Assembly: GCA_947525975.1 (NCBI GenBank)
Contig: CANNVE010000010.1
Location: forward strand, 1-64,000
Direction of reading: 5' to 3'
DNA length: 64,000 nt
Origin: an uncultured Muribaculaceae bacterium
GTDB lineage: Bacteria; Bacteroidota; Bacteroidia; Bacteroidales; Muribaculaceae
In this document: one piece after another, positions 28,181 to 37,639 of the stretch
Numbering within the stretch: the first letter of the stretch is position 1
Layout: each line of letters starts with the position of its first letter
Notes under the pieces: generated by a model
Seen by the model: only the letters and a program-made list of their open reading frames with translations
Databases searched by the model: none
What the model was told of the DNA's origin: nothing
Made by a program: the position numbers and the translations under genes

Positions 28181-28268
28181 GGAGAGGTGGCAGAGTGGTC
28201 GATTGCGGCGGTCTTGAAAACCGTTGAGGGTCACACCTCCGGGGGTTCGAATCCCTCCCTCTCCGCCA
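28181..28268 (+). tRNA. tRNA-Ser (anticodon UGA)
   Basis: The 88-base gene has acceptor arms GGAGAGG (28181-28187) and CCTCTCC followed by discriminator G and an encoded CCA (28266-28268). The D arm is GCAG...TGC, the anticodon loop is CTTGAAA with TGA, and there is a long class II variable arm (TGAGGGTCACACCTCCG region). The T arm is GGGGGTTCGAATCCCTC. The long variable arm and UGA anticodon identify serine. The AT-rich accessory region begins directly downstream. Confidence 0.96.
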
Positions 28269-28412: not shown

Positions 28413-31034
28413 ATGGTAACATCAGTTGTTATAATAATCTCTTTGGTAGTGATAGTAGTTGTTGTCACAATAATAATGCGCTTTCGACTAAACAAACGCG
28501 TGCAGGGATTATCTGAAAAAATTAATAACCTCTCACCTTATAGTACTGGAAATAGTTCTGGATATGCGCATGAAAGATTGTCAAAACTAAACAATTCGGT
28601 ATTCGTAAATATACCAACTGATATAGAAAATAGTTTCCATGACAAGATAATATCAGCGACACAGGGAATCGGTCTTGTTGATCATTATTCAAAATATTAT
28701 AATGAGGCTAATTCGTTGGTAAATATGTTAAAAGTGTTTAACATCAGTCCTTCTGAATCAATTTCTAATTTAATCCATGATTATTGTAGGATAAGGGACT
28801 ATATAAAATTGCATAATGAAAAGGTCATAAACAAGTTGTTGTCTGTGCACAAAGACTTTTTTGATCATTGTCTGCAGTACCCATTGGATGGCCAGCAGAG
28901 GCGTTCAATCGTTTCTGAAGAAGATAATTGTTTGGTGGTTAGCAGTGCCGGTAGCGGTAAAACGTCGTCTATTGTCGGAAAAGTTAAATATCTCACGGAG
29001 ATTAAAGGTATTGATCCCAAAAAAATACTGTTAATCAGTTACACCAATAAGGCCGCTTCCGAACTCACAGATAGAATAAATACTGATGGATTAAGGGGGT
29101 ACACATTCCATAAATTGGCCATTGATATAATCGGACAAATGACCGGTGTCAAACCATCCATTTGTGATAATACGGACGCTTTATTTGTCGATATATATCA
29201 TAGACTGTTGAACGATATTAATTTTAAGAAAAGTGTATTGGATTATTTCATAGCGTATACTAATGAAGAATCCATTTGGGAACAATGTAAAAGTGAAAGG
29301 CGTGAACAATTGTCTGAACAAAAAAAGGCTCGTCTGAAAACATTGTTCCCGGATATGGACGGCAAACCCGTCTACGTTCGTAGTGAACAGGAGCGAAAGA
29401 TATGTTTTGTGTTATCTTCTCTTGGAATTAATTACAGGTACGAAGAGGACTATGAATACCCATTGGCAAATGAAATACACTCTCAATACCGTCCTGATTT
29501 TTCCATATACTTTAATAAGGATGGCGTAACCAAGCGCATATATTTGGAGCATTTCGGAATTGATGACCATGGCTGCGTGCCCATTTGGTTTGCAAAGGAT
29601 AAGAATATCACTTACGAAGAGGCCAATAGAAAATATAACGATGGAATAACATGGAAAAAAGCCGCTCACGAGAAGTTTGGGACACAGCTTTTGGTGACAT
29701 CAAGCGCTGATTTCCATTATTCTGACATAAAAGACCGATTGAAGAATCAATTGATCAATGCGGGAGTGCCAATCTTTGAAAAGACCGATGATGATTTGTA
29801 TGGCTTTTTATTGCCCAATAATAGTAAACAGGAAAAAGCTTTCATAAGGCTTATTGTCACTTTCGTTACATTATTCAAATCAAGCTGCAAATCTATCGAT
29901 TTGGTTTTGAAGCAGGCAGAGATGGCGAATGATGGCCGGAGTGTATTTATAATAAAGAATATACTTCAACCTGTATATATCCGCTATGCTCAAACGTTGA
30001 TTGAATGTAAGCAAATAGATTTTACTGATGCCATACTCCAGGCTACAGACCTTTGCCGCAACAATCGTCTTTGCGAATATGAATATATTATCGTCGATGA
30101 GTTTCAAGACATATCCGTTGACCGTTATAATTTCCTGAAAGCATTGCGTGACGGACAACGCCCCGCAAAACTTTATTGCGTCGGGGATGATTGGCAATCC
30201 ATATATCGCTTTTCAGGCAGTGATATGGCTCTGTTTAATCAATTCCCGGAATATTTTGGCGCGACTGAAATTAATAAGATAGAGACTACATATAGATTTG
30301 GCGAACCTTTGGTTTCCTTATCATCCAATTTTATCCAACGGAATAATGCCCAAATTCAGAAGAATATTAGGTGTTTCAATGCCGGAGTGAATACGAATTT
30401 AGTGTTCTGTTCATACGAAAGGGGGGATTATTGCAATGAAGTTGGGCGGATTATATCCTCTATTCCGACTGATAAATCCATATTTCTTTTAGGTCGTTAT
30501 TCTTTTGATGACTATTACTTGTCATTCATGTATAAGCCTATAAAAGAAGGCAACCGATTCTTCTATTTAATAGCGGGTAGAAAAATCGAATTCTTGACCG
30601 TGCATAAATCGAAGGGGCTTGAAGCGGATTACGTTATTTTGCTTCAATGCAATAAAGACACATACGGTTTCCCATCGCTTGTAAGTGATGACCCGGTGCT
30701 AAAGTATGTTCTTACAAAGAGTGACCAATTTCCATTTGGTGAGGAACGTAGATTGTTCTACGTAGCAATTACAAGAGCGAAGGTGAAAACTTTTGTGCTT
30801 TATGACATGCGTTTCCCATCTGTATTTGTAGACGAGTTTTTGCATCCCGAAAAATTAACTGAAAGGAGTTATGACAGACACCCTAATGCCAATAAGCGAT
30901 GGACACGTAGTGCTGACAATCTCCTTTTGCGACTTCACGAAGAGGGAAAAAGCATCAGGCAGATTGCGATGAAGATGGGCCGAAGCCAGACATCGATTGT
31001 GATGCGGCTTGGGAAATTAAAGGCGAATGGCTGA
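28413..31034 (+). CDS. UvrD/HelD-like superfamily I helicase with membrane anchor and C-terminal HTH
   Basis: The 873-residue helicase has Walker A SSAGSGKTSS (about 176-185), motif II VDEFQD (about 561), motif III GDDWQSIYRF and motif VI VAITRAK. Between the two halves is the nuclease-like insert seen in helicase IV relatives (YRPDFSIYF, IYLEHFGI; about 320-430). Two ends are unusual: residues 4-22 form a hydrophobic membrane segment, and the last 40 residues form a helix-turn-helix (SIRQIAMKMGRSQTSIVMRL). Codon usage is markedly more AT-rich than in the flanking core genes, suggesting transfer. It starts 145 bases after the tRNA and is followed by a gene remnant. A defence or DNA-repair role is inference. 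Confidence 0.85.
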   Translation: MVTSVVIIISLVVIVVVVTIIMRFRLNKRVQGLSEKINNLSPYSTGNSSGYAHERLSKLNNSVFVNIPTDIENSFHDKIISATQGIGLVDHYSKYYNEANSLVNMLKVFNISPSESISNLIHDYCRIRDYIKLHNEKVINKLLSVHKDFFDHCLQYPLDGQQRRSIVSEEDNCLVVSSAGSGKTSSIVGKVKYLTEIKGIDPKKILLISYTNKAASELTDRINTDGLRGYTFHKLAIDIIGQMTGVKPSICDNTDALFVDIYHRLLNDINFKKSVLDYFIAYTNEESIWEQCKSERREQLSEQKKARLKTLFPDMDGKPVYVRSEQERKICFVLSSLGINYRYEEDYEYPLANEIHSQYRPDFSIYFNKDGVTKRIYLEHFGIDDHGCVPIWFAKDKNITYEEANRKYNDGITWKKAAHEKFGTQLLVTSSADFHYSDIKDRLKNQLINAGVPIFEKTDDDLYGFLLPNNSKQEKAFIRLIVTFVTLFKSSCKSIDLVLKQAEMANDGRSVFIIKNILQPVYIRYAQTLIECKQIDFTDAILQATDLCRNNRLCEYEYIIVDEFQDISVDRYNFLKALRDGQRPAKLYCVGDDWQSIYRFSGSDMALFNQFPEYFGATEINKIETTYRFGEPLVSLSSNFIQRNNAQIQKNIRCFNAGVNTNLVFCSYERGDYCNEVGRIISSIPTDKSIFLLGRYSFDDYYLSFMYKPIKEGNRFFYLIAGRKIEFLTVHKSKGLEADYVILLQCNKDTYGFPSLVSDDPVLKYVLTKSDQFPFGEERRLFYVAITRAKVKTFVLYDMRFPSVFVDEFLHPEKLTERSYDRHPNANKRWTRSADNLLLRLHEEGKSIRQIAMKMGRSQTSIVMRLGKLKANG

Positions 31035-31085: not shown

Positions 31086-31313
31086 CCTTTTTATTCTGCC
31101 GCCGGTCTAAAAAAACTCGGTTTTTCGGCCATGAAGGCCTTTTACCGCTCGATAGGCATGCCCGCAAGCATCCCCGAGCTCATAGGCAGAAAAGCCACAG
31201 AGGCCGAACTCAGCGAACTGGCCTTGAAATGCAGCAGGGGAGGCTCGTCGGTCAAGCCCCTGACGCAAGCCGATGTGCTGAAGGTTTATGCCATGGCCAA
31301 CTCCGCTGACTGA
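31086..31313 (+). pseudogene. C-terminal remnant of an iron-containing alcohol dehydrogenase
   Basis: An open frame of about 75 codons from 31086 encodes AAGLKKLGFSAMKAFYRSIG, then MPASIPELIGRKATEAEL and finishes with VLKVYAMANSAD. This is the C-terminal end of group III Fe-dependent alcohol (butanol-type) dehydrogenases. The upstream frame is closed by TGA at 31083 and the preceding DNA is the end of the helicase gene. The Rossmann and metal-binding parts are therefore missing. A short product could start at the ATG at 31131 but would be non-functional as an enzyme. Base composition resembles the core genome, in contrast to the helicase before it. Confidence 0.78.
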
Positions 31314-31388
31314 AATCGCCCTTTCACAGAGCCCGCTCGCCGCGGGACATTTTCGGGCGCATGGTAAAAGTCTCTGCTGTTGCTGTCT

Positions 31389-31467
31389 GCTTCTGCCATG
31401 TTATTGTTGCAGTTGGAAAAAAGTTTTGCTTCTGCCGTGAAATGGCAAACATGTACGCTAACTTTGC
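31389..31467 (+). promoter_or_regulatory. Promoter and tandem operator of the WYL regulator gene
   Basis: TAACTTTG at 31459-31466 is the -7 box. Just upstream is the palindrome-like TGCCGTGAAATGGCA (31433-31447), preceded by GCTTC. A second, weaker copy starts at 31389 (GCTTCTGCCATG...), 39 bases earlier. The 40-base block 31428-31467 matches 36281-36320 at 30 positions, with the palindrome centre 19 bases before the -7 box in both. The site would overlap RNA polymerase contacts, as expected for autoregulation by the WYL protein (inference). Confidence 0.72.
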
Positions 31468-31494
31468 CATCATAATAGTAAAACCACATGAAAC

Positions 31495-32412
31495 ATGGCA
31501 GCATCAGTTAGACTTATGCGCAGATACGTCTGGCTTGTCGAAACCATACGCCGGGCCGGACGCATTTCGCTTGACGAGATCAACTCTCGCTGGCTCTCCA
31601 ACTATGCGTTAAATCCCGACCATGAGGCCGAGATTCCGGAGCGTACATTCCACCGCCACCGTGAGGCTGTCGCCGAAATGTTTGGCATAGAGATATCCTG
31701 CGACAGGGCTTCCAACACCTATTGCATAAAAGACGATTCCGCGCTCCTCGGCCCGTCGTTCACAAATTGGCTATTCAATGGCGTTGCCCTCGACAATGAG
31801 TTGATGAGCAATGAGGGAGTGAAACGGAAAATACTCTTTGAGGATACGCCGGGCGGAGTGGAGCATCGACCAGCGATAATCGAGGCGCTCTCTACCAACC
31901 ATGTGTTGAGATTGAGATATAGGAGCTACAACAATCCTGTCGAAACGGAATGGGAAATTGAGCCGTGCGGCATGAAGCAATATCGCCGCCGCTGGTACGT
32001 CATAGGGTGCAAGGTATGCGAGGATTCTCCCTTGACGTTCGCTCTTGACCGCATCGTCAGCCTGCAAATCGCAGACAGGATATTTGAGCCGGACGATGGT
32101 GAAGACGTCAACGCGCTATTCTCGGAGGTGGTAGGCGTATTTGTAGATCCCGATCTTGATGTCGAAGATGTAGTTGTGAGGGTTTATGGCAGGCAGCGCA
32201 ATTACTTTGAAGGGACGCCTCTGCACCATTCGCAGACAATCATTGCTCGCACATCTGATTATACCGACTATCAGTTCAGGCTTCGCCCGGAATATGAATT
32301 CCAACATGAAATCCTTCGGCTCGGTCCCGATGCCGAAGTGTTGTCTCCGCAGTGGCTTCGCGGTGACATGAAATGGTATGCCGAGGAGTCTCTCAAACGA
32401 TATAAATATTAA
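31495..32412 (+). CDS. WYL-domain transcriptional regulator
   Basis: The 305-residue protein has an N-terminal winged-helix region (about 1-95, with GRISLDEINSRW and IPERTFHRHREAV), a WYL domain (about 125-205, with EPCGMKQYRRRWYVIGC) and a C-terminal WCX-like extension (LRPEYEFQHEILRLGPDAEVLSPQWLR). WYL regulators bind nucleotide or nucleic-acid ligands, and related proteins (BrxR/CapW type) repress phage-defence operons through palindromes overlapping the promoter. A palindrome lies in its own promoter and a matching one lies before the gene at 36324. A small membrane-protein gene starts six bases downstream. Confidence 0.87.
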   Translation: MAASVRLMRRYVWLVETIRRAGRISLDEINSRWLSNYALNPDHEAEIPERTFHRHREAVAEMFGIEISCDRASNTYCIKDDSALLGPSFTNWLFNGVALDNELMSNEGVKRKILFEDTPGGVEHRPAIIEALSTNHVLRLRYRSYNNPVETEWEIEPCGMKQYRRRWYVIGCKVCEDSPLTFALDRIVSLQIADRIFEPDDGEDVNALFSEVVGVFVDPDLDVEDVVVRVYGRQRNYFEGTPLHHSQTIIARTSDYTDYQFRLRPEYEFQHEILRLGPDAEVLSPQWLRGDMKWYAEESLKRYKY

Positions 32413-32417
32413 CGGCG

Positions 32418-32606
32418 ATGGAATTCTTCAAACCATTTTGGATCAGGATTGTGCCATCCCTTTTGGTGGCTTTGGCTGTCAACTTGGCGATATTGTTTGT
32501 TATTCCACCTACCACTACTTTCGGAATCATAGTAAAGGATGTGGTGTCACTGTCAATTGCCGCATTGATTTGCTTCAAGATTCTGTATGGAGGTCAATGC
32601 GACTGA
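32418..32606 (+). CDS. Small membrane protein (62 aa)
   Basis: The product is mostly two hydrophobic helices (IVPSLLVALAVNLAILFVIP and IVKDVVSLSIAALICFKIL). Its ATG is five bases after the WYL gene stop, so it is likely in the same transcript. No family is recognised. Small two-helix proteins beside defence regulators are sometimes pore-forming effectors; nothing in this sequence proves that. Confidence 0.62.
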   Translation: MEFFKPFWIRIVPSLLVALAVNLAILFVIPPTTTFGIIVKDVVSLSIAALICFKILYGGQCD

Positions 32607-32671
32607 CCATTATTTCATTTTTTATGCTGAAAAACATATCCGGGAGCGGGCTTCAGTAAAAAAATAATGTC

Positions 32672-32679
32672 TAACTTTG
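32672..32679 (+). promoter_or_regulatory. -7 box upstream of the small-protein cassette
   Basis: TAACTTTG here would start transcription near 32686, just before the ATG at 32699. No TGCC palindrome is present, so this promoter is not obviously under the WYL operator. Confidence 0.5.
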
Positions 32680-32698
32680 TAAATGCTGAAGCAAATTC

Positions 32699-32980
32699 AT
32701 GGTTCAAGAGAGAGCCATTGCGTCAGAAACATATCGCAAAGCATTATTGCAGAGTCCCATTCAAGAAAATCCGGCCAGATTTATGGAGGACGAAGCGACT
32801 GATGCTCACTCCCTTTGTATATACCCCTCAACACGGCATATACGGAATGGACGTGAGGCTATCAGTCTACTTCCATTCCATAAACGGGTTCCTTGGCCGG
32901 AATTGCCCAAGCCTCGCGCTGCGGCAAGCCCATTGAATGATGGACAGCAGACAATAGTCTTCGCGTCCATTTTCGTTTAA
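32699..32980 (+). CDS. Doubtful small protein (93 aa)
   Basis: An open frame of 93 codons starts 20 bases after a good -7 box. The first half (RAIASETYRKALLQSPIQEN) is protein-like and hydrophilic, while the second half is Pro/Arg-rich and less convincing. An overlapping frame (32667-32936) is equally long but begins before the expected transcript start. No similarity is recognised. The stretch may be non-coding or a decayed gene. Confidence 0.33.
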   Translation: MVQERAIASETYRKALLQSPIQENPARFMEDEATDAHSLCIYPSTRHIRNGREAISLLPFHKRVPWPELPKPRAAASPLNDGQQTIVFASIFV

Positions 32981-33000
32981 CCAACTAACTCAAATCAATC

Positions 33001-33216
33001 ATGACAATCAACATCATTCAAATCGTAATCGGCACAATTCTCTTAGGAGAATTAATAATGTGTATAATGATGAGTAAAGCCGCCTCAGACTATACTTACT
33101 ATATGTGCCGTCCGTTTGGCATTCCCTTCAGTATGGGGATAGGCTCGATCGTTCGCCTTGTATGTGCCGTGCTCGGAAGCATGCTTCTTTATAGAGGTAT
33201 AATAGGATTAATATAA
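33001..33216 (+). CDS. Small membrane protein (71 aa)
   Basis: The protein has two hydrophobic helices (IIQIVIGTILLGELIMCIMM and GIGSIVRLVCAVLGSMLLYR) joined by a short polar, Tyr-rich loop. No family is recognised. It opens a run of same-strand small genes (33001-34103) with gaps of only 4 to 52 bases. Confidence 0.65.
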   Translation: MTINIIQIVIGTILLGELIMCIMMSKAASDYTYYMCRPFGIPFSMGIGSIVRLVCAVLGSMLLYRGIIGLI

Positions 33217-33220
33217 ACAA

Positions 33221-33349
33221 ATGAGGTATAACTATAAAAAAAGTGATATGGCAGATAATGATTCAGTAGACTATGATGACATCGTCGAAGAACTCCTTGA
33301 TTTGGTATTCCCAAATGATGAAGACCGAGATGCATATATGAATGATTAA
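33221..33349 (+). CDS. Acidic micro-protein (42 aa)
   Basis: The ATG at 33221 lies four bases after the preceding stop. The product, MRYNYKKSDMADNDSVDYDD then IVEELLDLVFPNDEDRD to the end, is highly acidic and probably one amphipathic helix. A second in-frame Met is at residue 10. The close spacing and protein-like sequence support it as a real gene. Its charge complements the cationic proteins encoded next (inference only). Confidence 0.5.
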   Translation: MRYNYKKSDMADNDSVDYDDIVEELLDLVFPNDEDRDAYMND

Positions 33350-33381
33350 TATTCATAGTCCAATCTTTGACAAAAACATAA

Positions 33382-33525
33382 ATGTATATAGGTTATATGT
33401 ATAGATCAAAACTTGATAAAGTGATTGGTTCACAGACTAAAGAGCCGTCTTTGGTTAAAACCGTTGTTAAAGCGGCAATCGTTGGAACTATCACTGGAGC
33501 CGTTAAGCTACTGTCTAAAAAATAA
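33382..33525 (+). CDS. Cationic micro-protein (47 aa)
   Basis: The product has a basic N-terminal half and an amphipathic to hydrophobic C-terminal helix (SLVKTVVKAAIVGTITGAVK), ending in lysines. Such a helix could insert into or lie on a membrane. Its stop is followed four bases later by the next start. No family is recognised. An internal Met at residue 6 is an alternative start. Confidence 0.5.
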   Translation: MYIGYMYRSKLDKVIGSQTKEPSLVKTVVKAAIVGTITGAVKLLSKK

Positions 33526-33529
33526 TGTC

Positions 33530-33694
33530 ATGAGAATATTCAGGTGTTGTCAGTGTGGAAGCCCAATGGAATATATAGGGAATGGGGTGTACCAATGCCC
33601 TAATTGTGGCGATATAATGGACTATTCAGAATTGGTTAATGGCGCCAAATCATTGATTAAGTCATTGATCGATGCATTTGTTAAAATCAGATAA
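33530..33694 (+). CDS. Zinc-ribbon micro-protein with amphipathic tail (54 aa)
   Basis: Residues 1-30 form a zinc ribbon with two Cys pairs (CCQCGSPMEYIG and YQCPNCGD). The remainder (LVNGAKSLIKSLIDAFVKIR) is a cationic amphipathic helix. The ATG at 33530 is four bases after the previous stop. No named family is recognised. Confidence 0.6.
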   Translation: MRIFRCCQCGSPMEYIGNGVYQCPNCGDIMDYSELVNGAKSLIKSLIDAFVKIR

Positions 33695-33746
33695 TAGCCG
33701 AATTACCTGTTTTATTAAACCAAATATTTACTATCAGTAGAAAAAT

Positions 33747-34103
33747 ATGTTACCTGTATTAATAGGCCTTGGAGCCGTTGTTGCTGCTACTGTCGGAATT
33801 TGTTATTCGGTTGAGAAGCGCGGGCAAAAACTTCAAAAAGAACTCGATGCCGAAATTAAAAGATTGGGAGGTATGAGTAAGTTGAACGCCATTCAACTTG
33901 TATCTGCAAACTACAAAGGAAAAATAAAAGTATACGGTAACGGTAAATCCCTATCAGTTTCAGGATATGATTGGACTGATTGTGATTTCGAAATGCGGTT
34001 GGCCGCGCTTCGCTCTGGCTGTGAAGTAGTTTTGCAATATTACAAAACAGGTTCTAAGAAAGAAGGTTTTACAGCTTCCGGATTAGGTTATCGGAAAGCA
34101 TAG
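33747..34103 (+). CDS. Single-pass membrane protein of unknown function (118 aa)
   Basis: An N-terminal hydrophobic helix (LPVLIGLGAVVAATVGICYS) is followed by a basic, coiled-coil-like stretch (KRGQKLQKELDAEIKRLG) and a small soluble domain with beta character (IKVYGNGKSLSVSGYDWTDC). No similarity is recognised. It lies 52 bases after the zinc-ribbon gene and 44 bases before the EcsC-like gene on the same strand. Confidence 0.68.
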   Translation: MLPVLIGLGAVVAATVGICYSVEKRGQKLQKELDAEIKRLGGMSKLNAIQLVSANYKGKIKVYGNGKSLSVSGYDWTDCDFEMRLAALRSGCEVVLQYYKTGSKKEGFTASGLGYRKA

Positions 34104-34147
34104 TGAATAGCAAATAAATAAAATAGGAAAAATGTCATTAAATACAT

Positions 34148-34867
34148 ATGGACGAGACATGGATTTCATTCTTGAACGGCATCCTTAAGATGCCTGGGGC
34201 AAAGATTAATCGTGTTGCATTCCTACGGAAAACTTTCAGGGGATTGCCAGAAGATAAGATGATAATCTGTATCAAAGAATCACCTGTAAAGATAGTGGCT
34301 CCAAGCGTTCTTGACTCCAAAGCGGCTTCAATAATCAGTTCACATACGGTAAAGGCAACGGCAATATCTACCGCATCTGGAATACCCGGGGGATTTGCCA
34401 TGCTGGCAACAATACCGGCTGATTTGGCAAACTATTATTATCATATTGTAGCTGTTGGCCAAAAACTCGGGTATCTATATGGATTTCCTGATATGGTGGA
34501 TAAAAATGGTGATCTCACGGAGGATGGTGAGATTATGCTCACTGCATTCATTGGTGTGATGAACAAGGTGGAGGCAGCAAAGAAATTGATCAAACAGTTG
34601 GCAGTGGAATTAACCAAGCGGATTTCTGAAGAAACAGTTGCGCGCGTGGTCGGAAACTTAATGTCAAAGCAGATTGTAGCTCATGGGGCAGAGGCTATTG
34701 CTAAAAAACTTGGCGCACAGATTTCCACAAAGACTGTAAGCAGATCAATTACGAAAGTGATTCCATTTGTGAGTGGAATGATTTGCGGGGGTATAACCTA
34801 TGCTACATTTAAACCGCAAGCAAGAAGGCTTCATCAAGCTCTAAAAGACAATTTGGCTAGCGAATGA
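34148..34867 (+). CDS. EcsC-like family protein
   Basis: The 239-residue protein contains the EcsC-family pattern: a Gly/Ala-rich segment STASGIPGGFAMLATIPAD followed by YYHIVAVGQKLGYLYG. The rest is helical, with a hydrophobic hairpin near the end (VIPFVSGMICGGITYATF). EcsC proteins have no settled biochemical role, but related domains occur in conflict and membrane-associated systems. The next gene, a WHH-type nuclease, starts inside its stop (four-base overlap), so the two are translated together. Confidence 0.68.
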   Translation: MDETWISFLNGILKMPGAKINRVAFLRKTFRGLPEDKMIICIKESPVKIVAPSVLDSKAASIISSHTVKATAISTASGIPGGFAMLATIPADLANYYYHIVAVGQKLGYLYGFPDMVDKNGDLTEDGEIMLTAFIGVMNKVEAAKKLIKQLAVELTKRISEETVARVVGNLMSKQIVAHGAEAIAKKLGAQISTKTVSRSITKVIPFVSGMICGGITYATFKPQARRLHQALKDNLASE

Positions 34868-35553
34868 AAAGCGCTGATGTATTCCAGGCGGCAAATTGCC
34901 TTGCGGTAGAAGACGGGATGAGCCTTCGGCAGAAGGCGGAGGCTCTTGTCGGGCTGCTGGCTTGGCTTGATTACGAGTGCTCTCCTGAAGAGAAGGATAA
35001 GGCGTGGGCGGAGCTTGATCCTCGGGTGCAGGCGGCTGTCGATGAACTTTGGGAGAAGTATTATGCTGCTCCCAAGAGCAATGGTCATTGGACGGGCGAA
35101 AGGTGCGATTCTGTTTGGATTCCTGACGATGATTATGTGCCACCAAATAAGTCGTACTCCAACATCCACGGACTGACTTGGCGTGAAATCAAGCAAAAGT
35201 ATGGTTTCAGTGGGTTGAGATGTGATCGAGGGCGATTTTGCTTCGATGAGATTGCTTGGTATAAGGTCACATTACCCAATTTTGTGGAGTTGGTTGCGTC
35301 GTCCGACAGGGAGGCGCTTCATGAGGCGGCTTTCGCCTGTCTTGCCCTGCAACTTGGCAAGTCGATTGAAGAGGTCAAAGCCATAAAGGAAAGTGCCTGC
35401 GACCACACGCCAATGGGACAGAAGAATCTCGCTTGGCATGAAGATATTGATTGCGAAACACTATACCTTGTGCCGCAGGAAATCCATGGAAATATCATTC
35501 ACTTCGGAGGTGTGGCCATGTGCCAACTCCTCCGTAATCACAATCTAATTTGA
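34864..35553 (+). CDS. WHH-type HNH-superfamily nuclease (polymorphic-toxin-like)
   Basis: In this 229-residue protein, the last 42 residues carry AWHEDID (W191-H192-E193), LYLVPQEIHG (H208) and IIHFGGV (H213). These match the W-H-H ... Q/L-V-P ... H ... H-x-GG signature of WHH/LHH-type HNH toxins. Upstream is RGRFCFDEIAWYKVTLPNFVEL, similar to the lead-in of such domains. The second position of the usual WHH triplet is H but the third is E. The N-terminal half (about 1-80) is acidic and helical, with no signal peptide or delivery domain. It overlaps the EcsC-like gene by four bases and precedes a zinc-ribbon protein, a possible partner. Confidence 0.72.
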   Translation: MKSADVFQAANCLAVEDGMSLRQKAEALVGLLAWLDYECSPEEKDKAWAELDPRVQAAVDELWEKYYAAPKSNGHWTGERCDSVWIPDDDYVPPNKSYSNIHGLTWREIKQKYGFSGLRCDRGRFCFDEIAWYKVTLPNFVELVASSDREALHEAAFACLALQLGKSIEEVKAIKESACDHTPMGQKNLAWHEDIDCETLYLVPQEIHGNIIHFGGVAMCQLLRNHNLI

Positions 35554-35554
35554 T

Positions 35555-35689
35555 ATGTTGGTCATAGAAACTTATGAGTGCCGAGACTGCGGTCATATCT
35601 TCATTCACCACACCGGCGGCTTCATACTTAAACCATCGGCTCCGCAATGCCCCAAATGCGGGTCAAAGAATGCCAAGAAAGAGAGATAA
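35555..35689 (+). CDS. Zinc-ribbon micro-protein (44 aa)
   Basis: The ATG is two bases after the nuclease stop. The product has two Cys pairs (YECRDCGHIF and QCPKCGSK) with a short beta hairpin between them, the FmdB-like or rubredoxin-like zinc-ribbon pattern, and a basic tail. Position and size make it a candidate partner or antidote of the nuclease, but there is no direct evidence. Confidence 0.65.
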   Translation: MLVIETYECRDCGHIFIHHTGGFILKPSAPQCPKCGSKNAKKER

Positions 35690-35701
35690 CAGTAATTTGA
35701 T

Positions 35702-36076
35702 ATGCAGTTTTGCCGGAATATGTTTGCACGCGAAAACACCATTGAATTAGTCAAGAAATTCTCACGCGCAATATATTGTACGCCTGATACTAAACTTAGG
35801 GATTTAGGCATTGAGCCGTTGCAAGTATTCACGAACTTAGTGCGAGATGAGCTGGTCGAATTAAGACATGACGACTCTAATACTGAGCTTGATATACAAG
35901 ACGAATATACATTGGTCTTGACCAAGCCCATATTCAAGTTTGACATTCCCATATCTGAAATAGACACATTGGAATCTCTGGCAGACGAAATTTGCAACTT
36001 CGTAACGGCGCAAGATGAATATACACGTGAAAATGGTTATGACTTTATTCAAGAAGCCGGATGTGATACAACGTAA
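35702..36076 (+). CDS. Unknown 124-aa protein with carrier-protein-like pattern
   Basis: The sequence shows CTPDTKLRDLGIEPLQVFTN and later FDIPISEIDTLESLADEICN. Order and spacing recall acyl carrier proteins (L-x-D-L-G-I ... I/T-x-E-S-L-x-D-L-x-x-x-I). The attachment Ser expected after LGI is absent (Glu/Pro there), so it should not carry phosphopantetheine. The relation is inferred from pattern only. It starts 12 bases after the zinc-ribbon gene. Confidence 0.6.
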   Translation: MQFCRNMFARENTIELVKKFSRAIYCTPDTKLRDLGIEPLQVFTNLVRDELVELRHDDSNTELDIQDEYTLVLTKPIFKFDIPISEIDTLESLADEICNFVTAQDEYTRENGYDFIQEAGCDTT

Positions 36077-36091
36077 TGTGGGGGGTACACT

Positions 36092-36307
36092 TTGGAGTCT
36101 TCGTGGGAATATAGTAAATTAGACAATAAGGCGCTTCTGTCATTTATAAAAGTTCAGTACGGAATACAAATAGAAAAAGCGACAATAACCAAGTTCAATG
36201 GAACACTATCGGAACTGTGCGAAGTGTTGACTGACAGAATCAATCGGACGATTTTGTTTCAAAATTCAAAATATTTATCCGCTTCTGCCACGAAGTGGCA
36301 AGTGTGA
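36092..36307 (+). CDS. Possible 71-aa protein or broken paralogue of the preceding gene
   Basis: An open frame starting at TTG (36092) gives MESSWEYSKLDNKALLSFIK then VQYGIQIEKATITKF and GTLSELCEVLTDRI. This repeats the C-terminal pattern of the protein before it (hydrophobic strand, then T/E-S-L-x-E-x-x-x-x-I). No ATG is available, and the frame runs into the operator for the next gene. It may be a real gene, or a truncated duplicate whose first half is lost. Confidence 0.35.
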   Translation: MESSWEYSKLDNKALLSFIKVQYGIQIEKATITKFNGTLSELCEVLTDRINRTILFQNSKYLSASATKWQV

Positions 36308-36320
36308 TGCCTAACTTTGC
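36281..36320 (+). promoter_or_regulatory. Promoter and perfect operator palindrome shared with the WYL gene
   Basis: TGCCACGAAGTGGCA (36286-36300) is a perfect 15-base palindrome, preceded by GCTTC, and the -7 box TAACTTTG is at 36312-36319. The arrangement matches 31428-31467 base for base in spacing. The start codon of the next gene is only five bases after the -7 box, so the transcript would be nearly or fully leaderless. Confidence 0.72.
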
Positions 36321-36323
36321 GGC

Positions 36324-37022
36324 ATGGAAAAGATAATAGCGCATATCCGTCCTATTGACTGGACTGAAGGAGATGTATATGGCGTACATCTCCGACTGGC
36401 AGGAACAAAACCCTTCGCAACGATAAATTGGGGAGATGGCAAAAAGGATACATATTGGGGCAATGAAATCTACTCCCACCATATCTATCCAAAGGACTCT
36501 TCTTTGTATTTCATTATTGAGGTTGAAATCAATGCAGATGAGATTCTGTACGCAGACCCTTGCGGAGGTGATGTGGAAAATATTTTGTTCGACTTCAGCC
36601 AAGCCCCGTCAACGAGAGAAATCGGAATTCAGAATTTCGAGAATGTCATATTTGACAATCCCAATCTTGAAAATCTGTCAATGACAATTATTTTGGGCAA
36701 GGAGTATGACCTGTCGAAATGTCCCAATCTTAGGCACCTTATCTTCTCTCCCGCTACCGGTATGGGATGTCGGAAACTTGATCTTTCCAAATGTCATAAG
36801 CTTGAGTCGTTCTCATGCTGGGGTTATTTGGGCCCTGACTTGAAGAATCTGATAATAGCCAATGACGCGCCGCTGAAGGAAATTGACATAACGGGGCATG
36901 ACCTGCACCACTCTTGTCTTGCGGCTATACATCGCATAATTGAGCGCAACAACGGAACTATAGCCGGCGAATTAGAAGAACTTGATGATGAAGAACAGGA
37001 TGAGAGCATATATGGATTCTGA
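36324..37022 (+). CDS. PKD-like / leucine-rich-repeat-like protein
   Basis: The 232-residue protein has no signal peptide. Residues about 30-95 contain ATINWGDGKKDTYWG and YSHHIYPKDSSLYFIIEVEI, the W-G-D-G ... H-x-Y pattern of PKD-type beta sandwiches that precede repeats in many Bacteroidota proteins. Residues about 115-200 contain irregular leucine-rich repeats (YDLSKCPNLRHLIF, LDLSKCHKLESFSCWG). The C-terminus is acidic. The operator palindrome in its promoter matches that of the WYL gene, so it is a predicted target of that regulator. Its function is unknown; a sensing or binding role is possible. Confidence 0.72.
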   Translation: MEKIIAHIRPIDWTEGDVYGVHLRLAGTKPFATINWGDGKKDTYWGNEIYSHHIYPKDSSLYFIIEVEINADEILYADPCGGDVENILFDFSQAPSTREIGIQNFENVIFDNPNLENLSMTIILGKEYDLSKCPNLRHLIFSPATGMGCRKLDLSKCHKLESFSCWGYLGPDLKNLIIANDAPLKEIDITGHDLHHSCLAAIHRIIERNNGTIAGELEELDDEEQDESIYGF

Positions 37023-37084: not shown

Positions 37085-37639
37085 ATGCAAGAAATTGATA
37101 TTGTCATTGATGGGATCTATCTGGAATCTATCAAAATAGACCTCAATGAGTGTGAGGTGAATGGGGGAATGGGGGAGACTAACATCTTCGGTCGACGTGT
37201 GCGTAAGTCAATAATCTTTCCTATAGCAAAACTCAACTATGCAGGAGATAAGCGGGTGGAAAGCGTAAAATACAATCGGAGCATAGATCTTAAAGATGCC
37301 GCATTGACTGTCTCCAACTTTGAAGGGGCCGGTTGTGGCAAGACATATTTCGTGGTGAGCAACACGAAAACTTATTCCCTATACGACATAAACGGGCATT
37401 TCCTTAGGTATATACCCATCACCGAGTATGGTAGAATCATCTGCCTGGGCGCTTTGAGTTTCGTCACGAAATCTGATAGCGGCACTTTGCACTTGTGGAG
37501 TTGTAAGGGCGTCTGCTCGGAGGGCTTTCCCGCCACGCCGGAAAATATTAAATACTATGGTTGGCAGAAGGGAAAACTAATCAAAAAATCAGAAAGTTAC
37601 AGCTTCCCTTTTCCTGAAAATGAGGACCTTTATTTTTAA
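37085..37639 (+). CDS. Conserved-looking protein of unknown function (184 aa)
   Basis: The protein is rich in beta strands, with segments such as NIFGRRVRKSIIFPIAKLNY and CGKTYFVVSNTKTYSLYDIN. It has no signal peptide or membrane helix and no recognised motif. It follows the PKD/LRR-like gene after 62 bases on the same strand and is the last gene of the AT-rich accessory region. Confidence 0.62.
   Translation: MQEIDIVIDGIYLESIKIDLNECEVNGGMGETNIFGRRVRKSIIFPIAKLNYAGDKRVESVKYNRSIDLKDAALTVSNFEGAGCGKTYFVVSNTKTYSLYDINGHFLRYIPITEYGRIICLGALSFVTKSDSGTLHLWSCKGVCSEGFPATPENIKYYGWQKGKLIKKSESYSFPFPENEDLYF

Follow-up and report, generated by a model that had tools for sequence, protein, structure and literature searches.

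Within a 64,000-nucleotide (nt) stretch of DNA from an uncultured Muribaculaceae bacterium (contig CANNVE010000010.1, positions 1 to 64,000, referred to here as the window), a gene for a WYL-domain regulator and a downstream gene for a PKD/LRR-like protein carry the same palindromic operator in front of them, in both cases at exactly the same distance from an identical promoter box. The two-site signal is far beyond chance, and its conservation in related genomes suggests that the region from 31.4 to 37.6 kb is very probably one WYL-controlled island with defence-like cargo, in which one WYL protein probably switches both promoters. Because of the rigid placing of the operator, activation by the WYL protein appears somewhat likelier than repression.

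The operators and their boxes

Operator 1, TGCCGTGAAATGGCA (31433-31447, forward strand), has the form TGCC-N7-GGCA and is located in the promoter of the WYL gene, and operator 2, TGCCACGAAGTGGCA (36286-36300, forward strand), is located 5′ of the PKD/LRR-like gene. In both cases exactly 11 nt separate the operator from the box TAACTTTG that comes next on the same strand and that we take to be the element named the −7 box. The first box (31459-31466) stands 28 nt before the ATG of the WYL gene and the second (36312-36319) 4 nt before the ATG at 36324. An initial annotation, made from the letters of the window, had described the same operator at the same distance from identical boxes, with the surrounding blocks agreeing at 30 of 40 positions, and direct comparison of 31428-31467 with 36281-36320 bears out both statements. 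Its further claim that several changes in one arm are matched in the other is too strong: the two 15-mers differ at three positions. Positions 6 and 10 together form one matched double change (T-A to C-G), and the G-to-A change at position 5 has no counterpart, as its pairing partner T11 is identical in the two 15-mers. The second copy that had been placed 39 bases upstream of the WYL operator is present as a half-site only, namely the 9-mer GCTTCTGCC (31389-31397, forward strand), which lies 39 nt 5′ of the identical 9-mer in operator 1 and has neither a right arm nor a box at 11 nt in the window sequence. This 9-mer occurs five times in the window, with 0.86 occurrences expected.

The signal is the composite of palindrome and box rather than the 15-mer alone, which with up to three mismatches has 21 matches in the window where 14.6 are expected, an excess that is not significant (9 of 100 shuffles reach 21). 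The composite CTTCTGCC-N2-GAA-N2-GGCAA-N10-TAnnTTTG, again with up to three mismatches, is matched twice in the genome of 2,901,635 bases and not at all in the reversed control; the looser exact pattern TGCC-N7-GGCA-N{8,14}-TAnnTTTG is likewise matched twice, with one match in its reversed control. Both genome-wide matches of the composite are the two window sites in this island.

The distance between palindrome and box can be assessed in two sets of loci, both drawn from a ranking by WYL similarity: 16 loci of the close clade (the window and 15 relatives, WYL identity 44-74%) and 25 paralogue loci with more distant WYL proteins (about 34-41% identity). Pairs were counted where a 15-mer of the form TG...CA, with at least four of six arm positions paired, had a TAnnTTTG box 3-19 nt downstream, and 20 loci picked for having a gap of 11 were excluded. 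The close clade yields 32 pairs, with 30 at 11 nt, one at 12 and one at 19, and the paralogue loci yield 20 at 11 nt and 11 spread over the other 16 gaps. For 30 pairs to fall at a single gap, with the other gaps as counted, the Poisson probability is 3e-60, a figure that overstates the case because sites in related loci are not independent; the relatives share ancestry, and the P values given throughout overstate independence. Within the palindrome, the 6/10 pair is complementary in 18 of 39 distinct sites where 11.3 are expected (p 0.004), a value biased upward since the sites were preselected for at least four of six paired positions, and pairs 3/13, 4/12 and 5/11 show no clear excess of complementarity in these sites (p 0.35, 0.05 and 0.16, respectively).

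Conservation before both genes

A scan of relatives for the palindrome before WYL genes, as suggested in the initial annotation, shows that 10 of 15 scored close-clade loci have the operator no more than 200 nt ahead of the WYL gene; of the 11 close-clade loci with a TAnnTTTG box of any kind in the final 150 nt, 10 have it. For paralogue loci the corresponding counts are 7 of 24, and 7 of the 12 with a box. One locus of each set (L049 and L084) was dropped from this scoring, both starting too near a contig end.

The PKD/LRR-like gene is matched in 7 of 297 genomes of the family at a threshold of E 1e-6. All three close orthologues (the window, G228 and G250) have the operator upstream at an identical position relative to the start codon, and in all three there are 4 nt between the end of the box and the ATG; the G250 orthologue reads only 72 codons. 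Distant copies in G000:C9, G245, G136 and G126 have no operator upstream, the G056 copy falling outside the comparison, and a WYL gene of another clade is located near the copies in G000:C9, G245 and G136. The G000:C9 copy (L131, G000:C9:97599-98249) is a second PKD/LRR-like gene of the same genome, 44% identical, near an other-clade WYL gene and with no operator directly upstream. In G146 the site also precedes a reading that starts MEK..AHIRPIDWT, and no PKD/LRR match is listed in that genome.

When three WYL and three PKD/LRR-like promoters are aligned, TCTGCC, AA, TGGCA and TAA.TTTGC are kept and the flanks have diverged. Close orthologues of both window genes have thus held on to the operator, the palindrome being present upstream rather than absent. 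As one operator design accompanies this WYL clade and precedes both genes in relatives too, the earlier proposal that the block from 31.5 to 37.6 kb forms one WYL-controlled system is plausible.

The WYL regulator

The regulator gene (31495-32412, forward strand) encodes a protein of 305 amino acids (aa), characterized by domain search, profile search and a structure model. The WYL and WCX domains score above cut-off, and the model adds an N-terminal winged helix-turn-helix (wHTH) with helices at residues 2-21, 26-35 and 49-63 and strands at 67-70 and 75-78. Between the wHTH and WYL domains the model has helices at 82-85, 89-105, 107-112 and 122-134, with block pLDDT of 51-75 over residues 81-120. 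A search of NCBIfam gave no name for the protein.

The initial annotation had placed this protein with the BrxR/CapW group of repressors. The wHTH-WYL-WCX plan fits that group, as does a palindrome in the regulator's own promoter and in that of linked defence-like genes, where binding is predicted; the nearest solved relatives, however, are the activators PafBC and DriD rather than BrxR or CapW, and the 11-nt gap is rigid. A profile search of the WYL alignment against solved regulators gives 1.1e-16 for PafBC and 3.2e-12 for DriD, and the same search gives 2.9e-4 for BrxR (7qfz) and 4.6e-4 for CapW (7tb5). DriD is also the top match in a fold search with the window protein. The root-mean-square deviation of the fold alignment to DriD is about 14-15 for whole chains and about 4.5 for the WYL-WCX part, the whole-chain value reflecting a domain orientation that differs from that of DriD.

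The groove of the WYL domain reads F-A-L-D-R-I in the window regulator versus W-R-L-D-R-M in DriD. Its second arginine (R186) is invariant in 16 proteins. In PafBC, two groove arginines are needed for binding of single-stranded DNA (ssDNA) (PMC11804915).

Activation or repression

The place of the −33 element can be read from the other TAnnTTTG promoters in the fetched loci, 192 in all, where TTG is most frequent 19-20 nt ahead of the box (52 promoters). The operator promoters have TTG at this place in 3 of 31 cases versus the 52 of 192 (p 0.04), and the operator covers the place, its dyad centre lying within about 3 bp of it. Since the site covers the position of the −33 box and is held at 11 nt from the −7 box, a dimer bound there would most likely replace a poor −33 contact, and activation is favoured because replacing that contact requires a fixed distance whereas a repressor requires none. 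A comparable arrangement is described for DriD: its sites, ATACGAC(X)7GTCGTAT, lie across −35 boxes of poor quality, and their distance from the −10 box is constant (PMC12340889, a preprint). The half-sites of TGCC-N7-GGCA are likewise 7 bp apart, and the site sits over a poor −33 place at a constant distance from the box (30 of 32 at 11 nt), with the reservation that the difference at −33 is modest.

On this basis we consider it fairly probable that the WYL protein activates the island. In the proposed mechanism a WYL dimer would bind TGCC-N7-GGCA at both promoters through its wHTH domains, with the two half-sites flanking the −33 region, and would substitute for the poor −33 contact and recruit RNA polymerase in the manner described for DriD. 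The trigger would be a nucleic-acid-type signal in the WYL domain, arising from DNA damage or phage infection, and it would turn on the regulator itself (a feedback), the run of PDC-S30 and WHH-nuclease genes behind it and the PKD/LRR-like unit.

A number of observations weigh against this proposal. Besides being modest, the −33 difference is measured against a control set that contains false promoters, and the right arm of the operator itself puts a TTG 14 nt before the box in 21 of 31 promoters. Five of the 15 close-clade WYL genes are without the site by the scoring used (L038, L043, L044, L047 and L050); in L038 a run of N lies over the 5′ part of the WYL gene. At the PKD/LRR-like gene the box is 4 nt from the ATG, so that a leaderless message or a later protein start is needed, and the box might not be a −7 element there. 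Regarding the protein, the linker that is relevant to the three-helix bundle with which DriD touches RNA polymerase is poorly modelled, and in the window protein and several relatives Ala or Ser apparently stands in place of the first groove arginine, the mapping onto PafBC being our own. Bound ssDNA is no mark of activators, since a CapW structure (9c5g) contains ssDNA too. The DriD preprint reports that driD is not activated by DriD from the adjoining site, and that an earlier study had placed DriD sites at varying positions (PMC12340889). Finally, a repressor sitting over −33 could likewise be fixed in place.

The strongest competitor, and a less likely reading, is a BrxR/CapW-type repressor that would cover the −33 region of both promoters while the cell is quiet and, once released by a ligand of the WYL domain, leave the island derepressed. 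Such a repressor would have the domain plan of the window regulator, and the cargo of the island is defence-like. The BrxR protein of Escherichia fergusonii has two boxes, one before brxR and one before brxA, an equal two-site logic (PMC9122601), and the palindrome can also be written TGCCR-N5-TGGCA, similar to the half-sites of Acinetobacter BrxR, which are 5 nt apart and overlap the −35 element (PMC9122589). BrxR and CapW are, however, more distant from the window protein than PafBC and DriD. The positions of WYL-repressor operators also differ from one promoter to another in these reports: BrxR of E. fergusonii binds downstream of −10 (PMC9122601), Acinetobacter BrxR over −35 (PMC9122589) and CapW over −10 (PMC9122588), in contrast with the 30 of 32 sites fixed at one distance here. 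Activation and repression predict opposite signs of the deletion phenotype and a different tolerance of spacing changes, making a clean test possible.

Distribution of the sites in other genomes

The palindromes could instead be the promoter type of another dimeric regulator or of a sigma factor, with the proximity to WYL genes coincidental, a reading that is very improbable in view of the distribution of the sites. When 49 genomes of the genus are scanned with one mismatch allowed, the single match outside the window genome (G006) is just 5′ of a WYL orthologue. The exact pattern is found in 120 of 297 genomes of the family, and among the 150 family matches listed 82 are at gap 11 and 68 are spread over six other gaps. 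When these are compared with 150 WYL genes, both sets comprising only the matches listed, a listed WYL gene lies within 12 kb of 31 of the 82 gap-11 sites and of none of the 68 others (Fisher 3e-10). The remaining 51 gap-11 sites, without a listed WYL gene within 12 kb, speak for another regulator, as does the fact that some sites lead to genes such as RtcB. Against it, the sites precede WYL genes themselves, and the only two sites found in the window genome are both in this island. Dispersed sites may moreover answer to distant WYL genes, since a WYL gene is present at E 1e-30 in 293 of the 297 genomes and proximity was counted only among the matches listed. A scan of the order (247 genomes) gives 28 matches in 21 genomes, 17 of them at gap 11; 15 of these, in nine genomes, are outside the window genome, and in the stretches around 13 of the 15 a WYL gene is found inside the stretch for five of the nine genomes.

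Twenty gap-11 places were chosen as not being beside a then-known WYL match, and 18 of these have no WYL match in the fetched stretch by profile (the matches are in L115 and L117), although in one of the 18, L122, a WYL gene lies just past the fetched stretch. Downstream of such sites are, among others, genes for RtcB, for AAA and MoxR ATPases and, in second position, for a cytosine-5 methylase, and there are hints here of wider nucleic-acid stress regulons of WYL paralogues. RtcB RNA ligase genes with a gap-11 operator upstream are present in L105 (7665) and L109 (3539), representing two genomes of one genus. In L097 three operators about 1 kb apart (5719, 6744 and 7772) each precede a similar gene, and a WYL gene that has an operator itself lies a few kb away; a relative of these genes in L110 matches beta-solenoid and hexapeptide models.

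Chance, or recent duplication of one promoter segment, is to be rejected as next to impossible, for although the two segments have 30 of 40 bases in common, the site stands before close orthologues of both genes in other genera in diverged flanks, and the gap histogram (with its overstated Poisson value from related loci) leaves hardly any room for either.

Genes and cargo of the island

All genes of the island are on the forward strand. Directly 3′ of the WYL gene a small hydrophobic open reading frame (ORF) of 62 aa (32418-32606) is read from the sequence; further on there is a zinc-ribbon-like ORF of 54 aa (33530-33694), which is below Pfam cut-offs, and an ORF of 118 aa (33747-34103) without a family in domain and PADLOC scans. 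These are followed by the PDC-S30 defence candidate (34148-34867, 239 aa; PADLOC 6.8e-70), a WHH (HNH/Endo VII superfamily) nuclease-like protein (34864-35553, 229 aa; PF14414 1.5e-7, above cut-off) whose C-terminus recurs in related islands, a zinc ribbon (35555-35689, 44 aa; PF09723 1.2e-8, above cut-off) with relatives in other islands, and an ORF of 124 aa (35702-36076) that is again without a family in both scans. No BREX or CBASS families are among the window proteins scanned.

The PKD/LRR-like gene (36324-37022) encodes 232 aa. Its label in the initial annotation is supported by a confident structure model (pLDDT 86.7) and by PKD and LRR matches in a viral library, and the motif WGDG is invariant in seven aligned relatives. 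Comparison with solved structures gives no match at E 0.001, the best being LRR proteins from 0.05, and does not contradict the fold. The following ORF of 184 aa (37085-37639), without a family, presumably belongs to the same transcript, judging by strand and position.

The cargo differs among other islands of the clade. A set of 61 cargo proteins from 14 loci (the window and 13 relatives) was picked by hand from the relatives' gene maps, which rest on a greedy choice of ORFs and not on a trained gene finder; five of these proteins match WHH, four DUF6140 and two GTPase families, and the PADLOC matches include PDC-S01, PDC-S29, JukA and ShosA. Nine of the 16 close-clade loci, the window among them, encode a nuclease-like motif at a C-terminus, HED...LV....H....H.G, recognized directly or through a profile built on it, and a tenth locus, L047, gives a weak match. 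This recurring C-terminus is a possible shared effector of the islands. It is seen beside sites in L037, L038, L039, L040, L041, L042, L043, L045, L112, L114 and L122. Additional sites are often positioned at the far end of an island, facing inwards. To judge by their titles, none of the papers found on DUF6140 or WHH nucleases deals with these islands.

Upstream of the island there is a UvrD-like helicase gene (28413-31034), and just before that a tRNA gene recognized by Rfam (28181-28265), which is a possible integration spot. The segment just after the helicase gene (31120-31315) presumably corresponds to the C-terminal end of an iron-containing alcohol dehydrogenase, which it resembles.

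A hairpin element after the WYL gene

A conserved non-coding hairpin element of about 300 nt (32665-32968, forward strand), recognized by homology, folding and codon-position analysis, has a copy of TAACTTTG near its start. It has matches at 81-86% identity in G250, G201 and G236, and is thus present in the four closest WYL loci (with G000); a 45-nt match lies elsewhere in G184, and at E 1e-5 the other 292 genomes scanned have no match. In the window and in G236 the predicted fold outscores every shuffle, with z −4.84 and −6.14, respectively. A consensus of four sequences has 97 pairs, nine of them changed on both sides; as most pairs never vary, covariation support is thin. A coding gene was rejected, as differences are spread evenly over codon positions and insertions and deletions break the frame, and so was a known RNA, with no Rfam family at E up to 1. 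An exact-core pattern, which would miss diverged copies, is absent from viral contigs and occurs once among genome contigs, in a metagenome-assembled genome of Muribaculum. The element may represent an RNA that belongs to the system, or else an inverted-repeat element.

Comparison with known systems

Published WYL control of defence islands concerns, to our knowledge, mainly repressors in Proteobacteria. The word start 'bacteroid' has no occurrence in the main text of PMC9122601, PMC9122588 and PMC9122589, and in the library searched no paper was found that joins WYL, Bacteroidales, defense and transcriptional regulator; some looser matches contain both WYL and Bacteroidetes. In a broader and tentative proposal, TGCC-N7-GGCA-N11-TAnnTTTG would define a Bacteroidales regulon in which DriD-like WYL proteins, on a nucleic-acid signal, activate interchangeable defence modules (PDC-S30, JukA-like, GTPase and HED/WHH nuclease sets) and stress genes such as RtcB, and the structured RNA of about 300 nt in the window clade might serve the WYL protein as partner or ligand. 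If this is true, a genome search with the composite site would be a sequence-only route to new defence genes in gut Bacteroidales. Should the rigid site function in the proposed way, defence islands of gut Bacteroidales would be turned on by an activator, and the 34-nt composite would be a cheap marker for new island genes.

Among characterized regulators, DriD of Caulobacter crescentus, a homodimeric WYL activator, shares with the window protein the wHTH-WYL-WCX architecture, the top place in the fold search and a strong profile match; its half-sites are also 7 bp apart and its site lies over a poor −35/−33 box at a fixed distance from the −10/−7 box (PMC12340889, a preprint). The half-site letters differ (ACGAC there, TGCC here) and the proteins are about 20% identical; DriD has DNA-damage gene targets whereas the cargo here is defence-like, and driD, according to the preprint, is not activated from its adjoining site whereas a site lies in the WYL promoter here. 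One groove arginine is apparently missing in the window protein, for which activation is a prediction. PafBC, the heterodimeric, ssDNA-gated WYL activator of mycobacteria and relatives, is the best profile match (1e-16) and takes over the −35 contact (PMC11804915), as the window protein would under activation; it is a PafB/PafC pair, in contrast with the single gene and palindromic site here. BrxR and CapW, repressors of BREX and CBASS, have in common with the window system the domain plan, a palindrome in their own promoter and defence-like cargo (PMC9122601, PMC9122588, PMC9122589), and BrxR of E. fergusonii has the two-box logic as well (PMC9122601). They are more distant in sequence and fold, their sites are longer (about 20 to 27 bp) and occupy other promoter positions, and the families of BREX and CBASS are not among the scanned window proteins. 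WYL-controlled defence-like islands are known, and what is new here is a box-defined, rigid and activator-like form in Bacteroidales, more likely activated than repressed.

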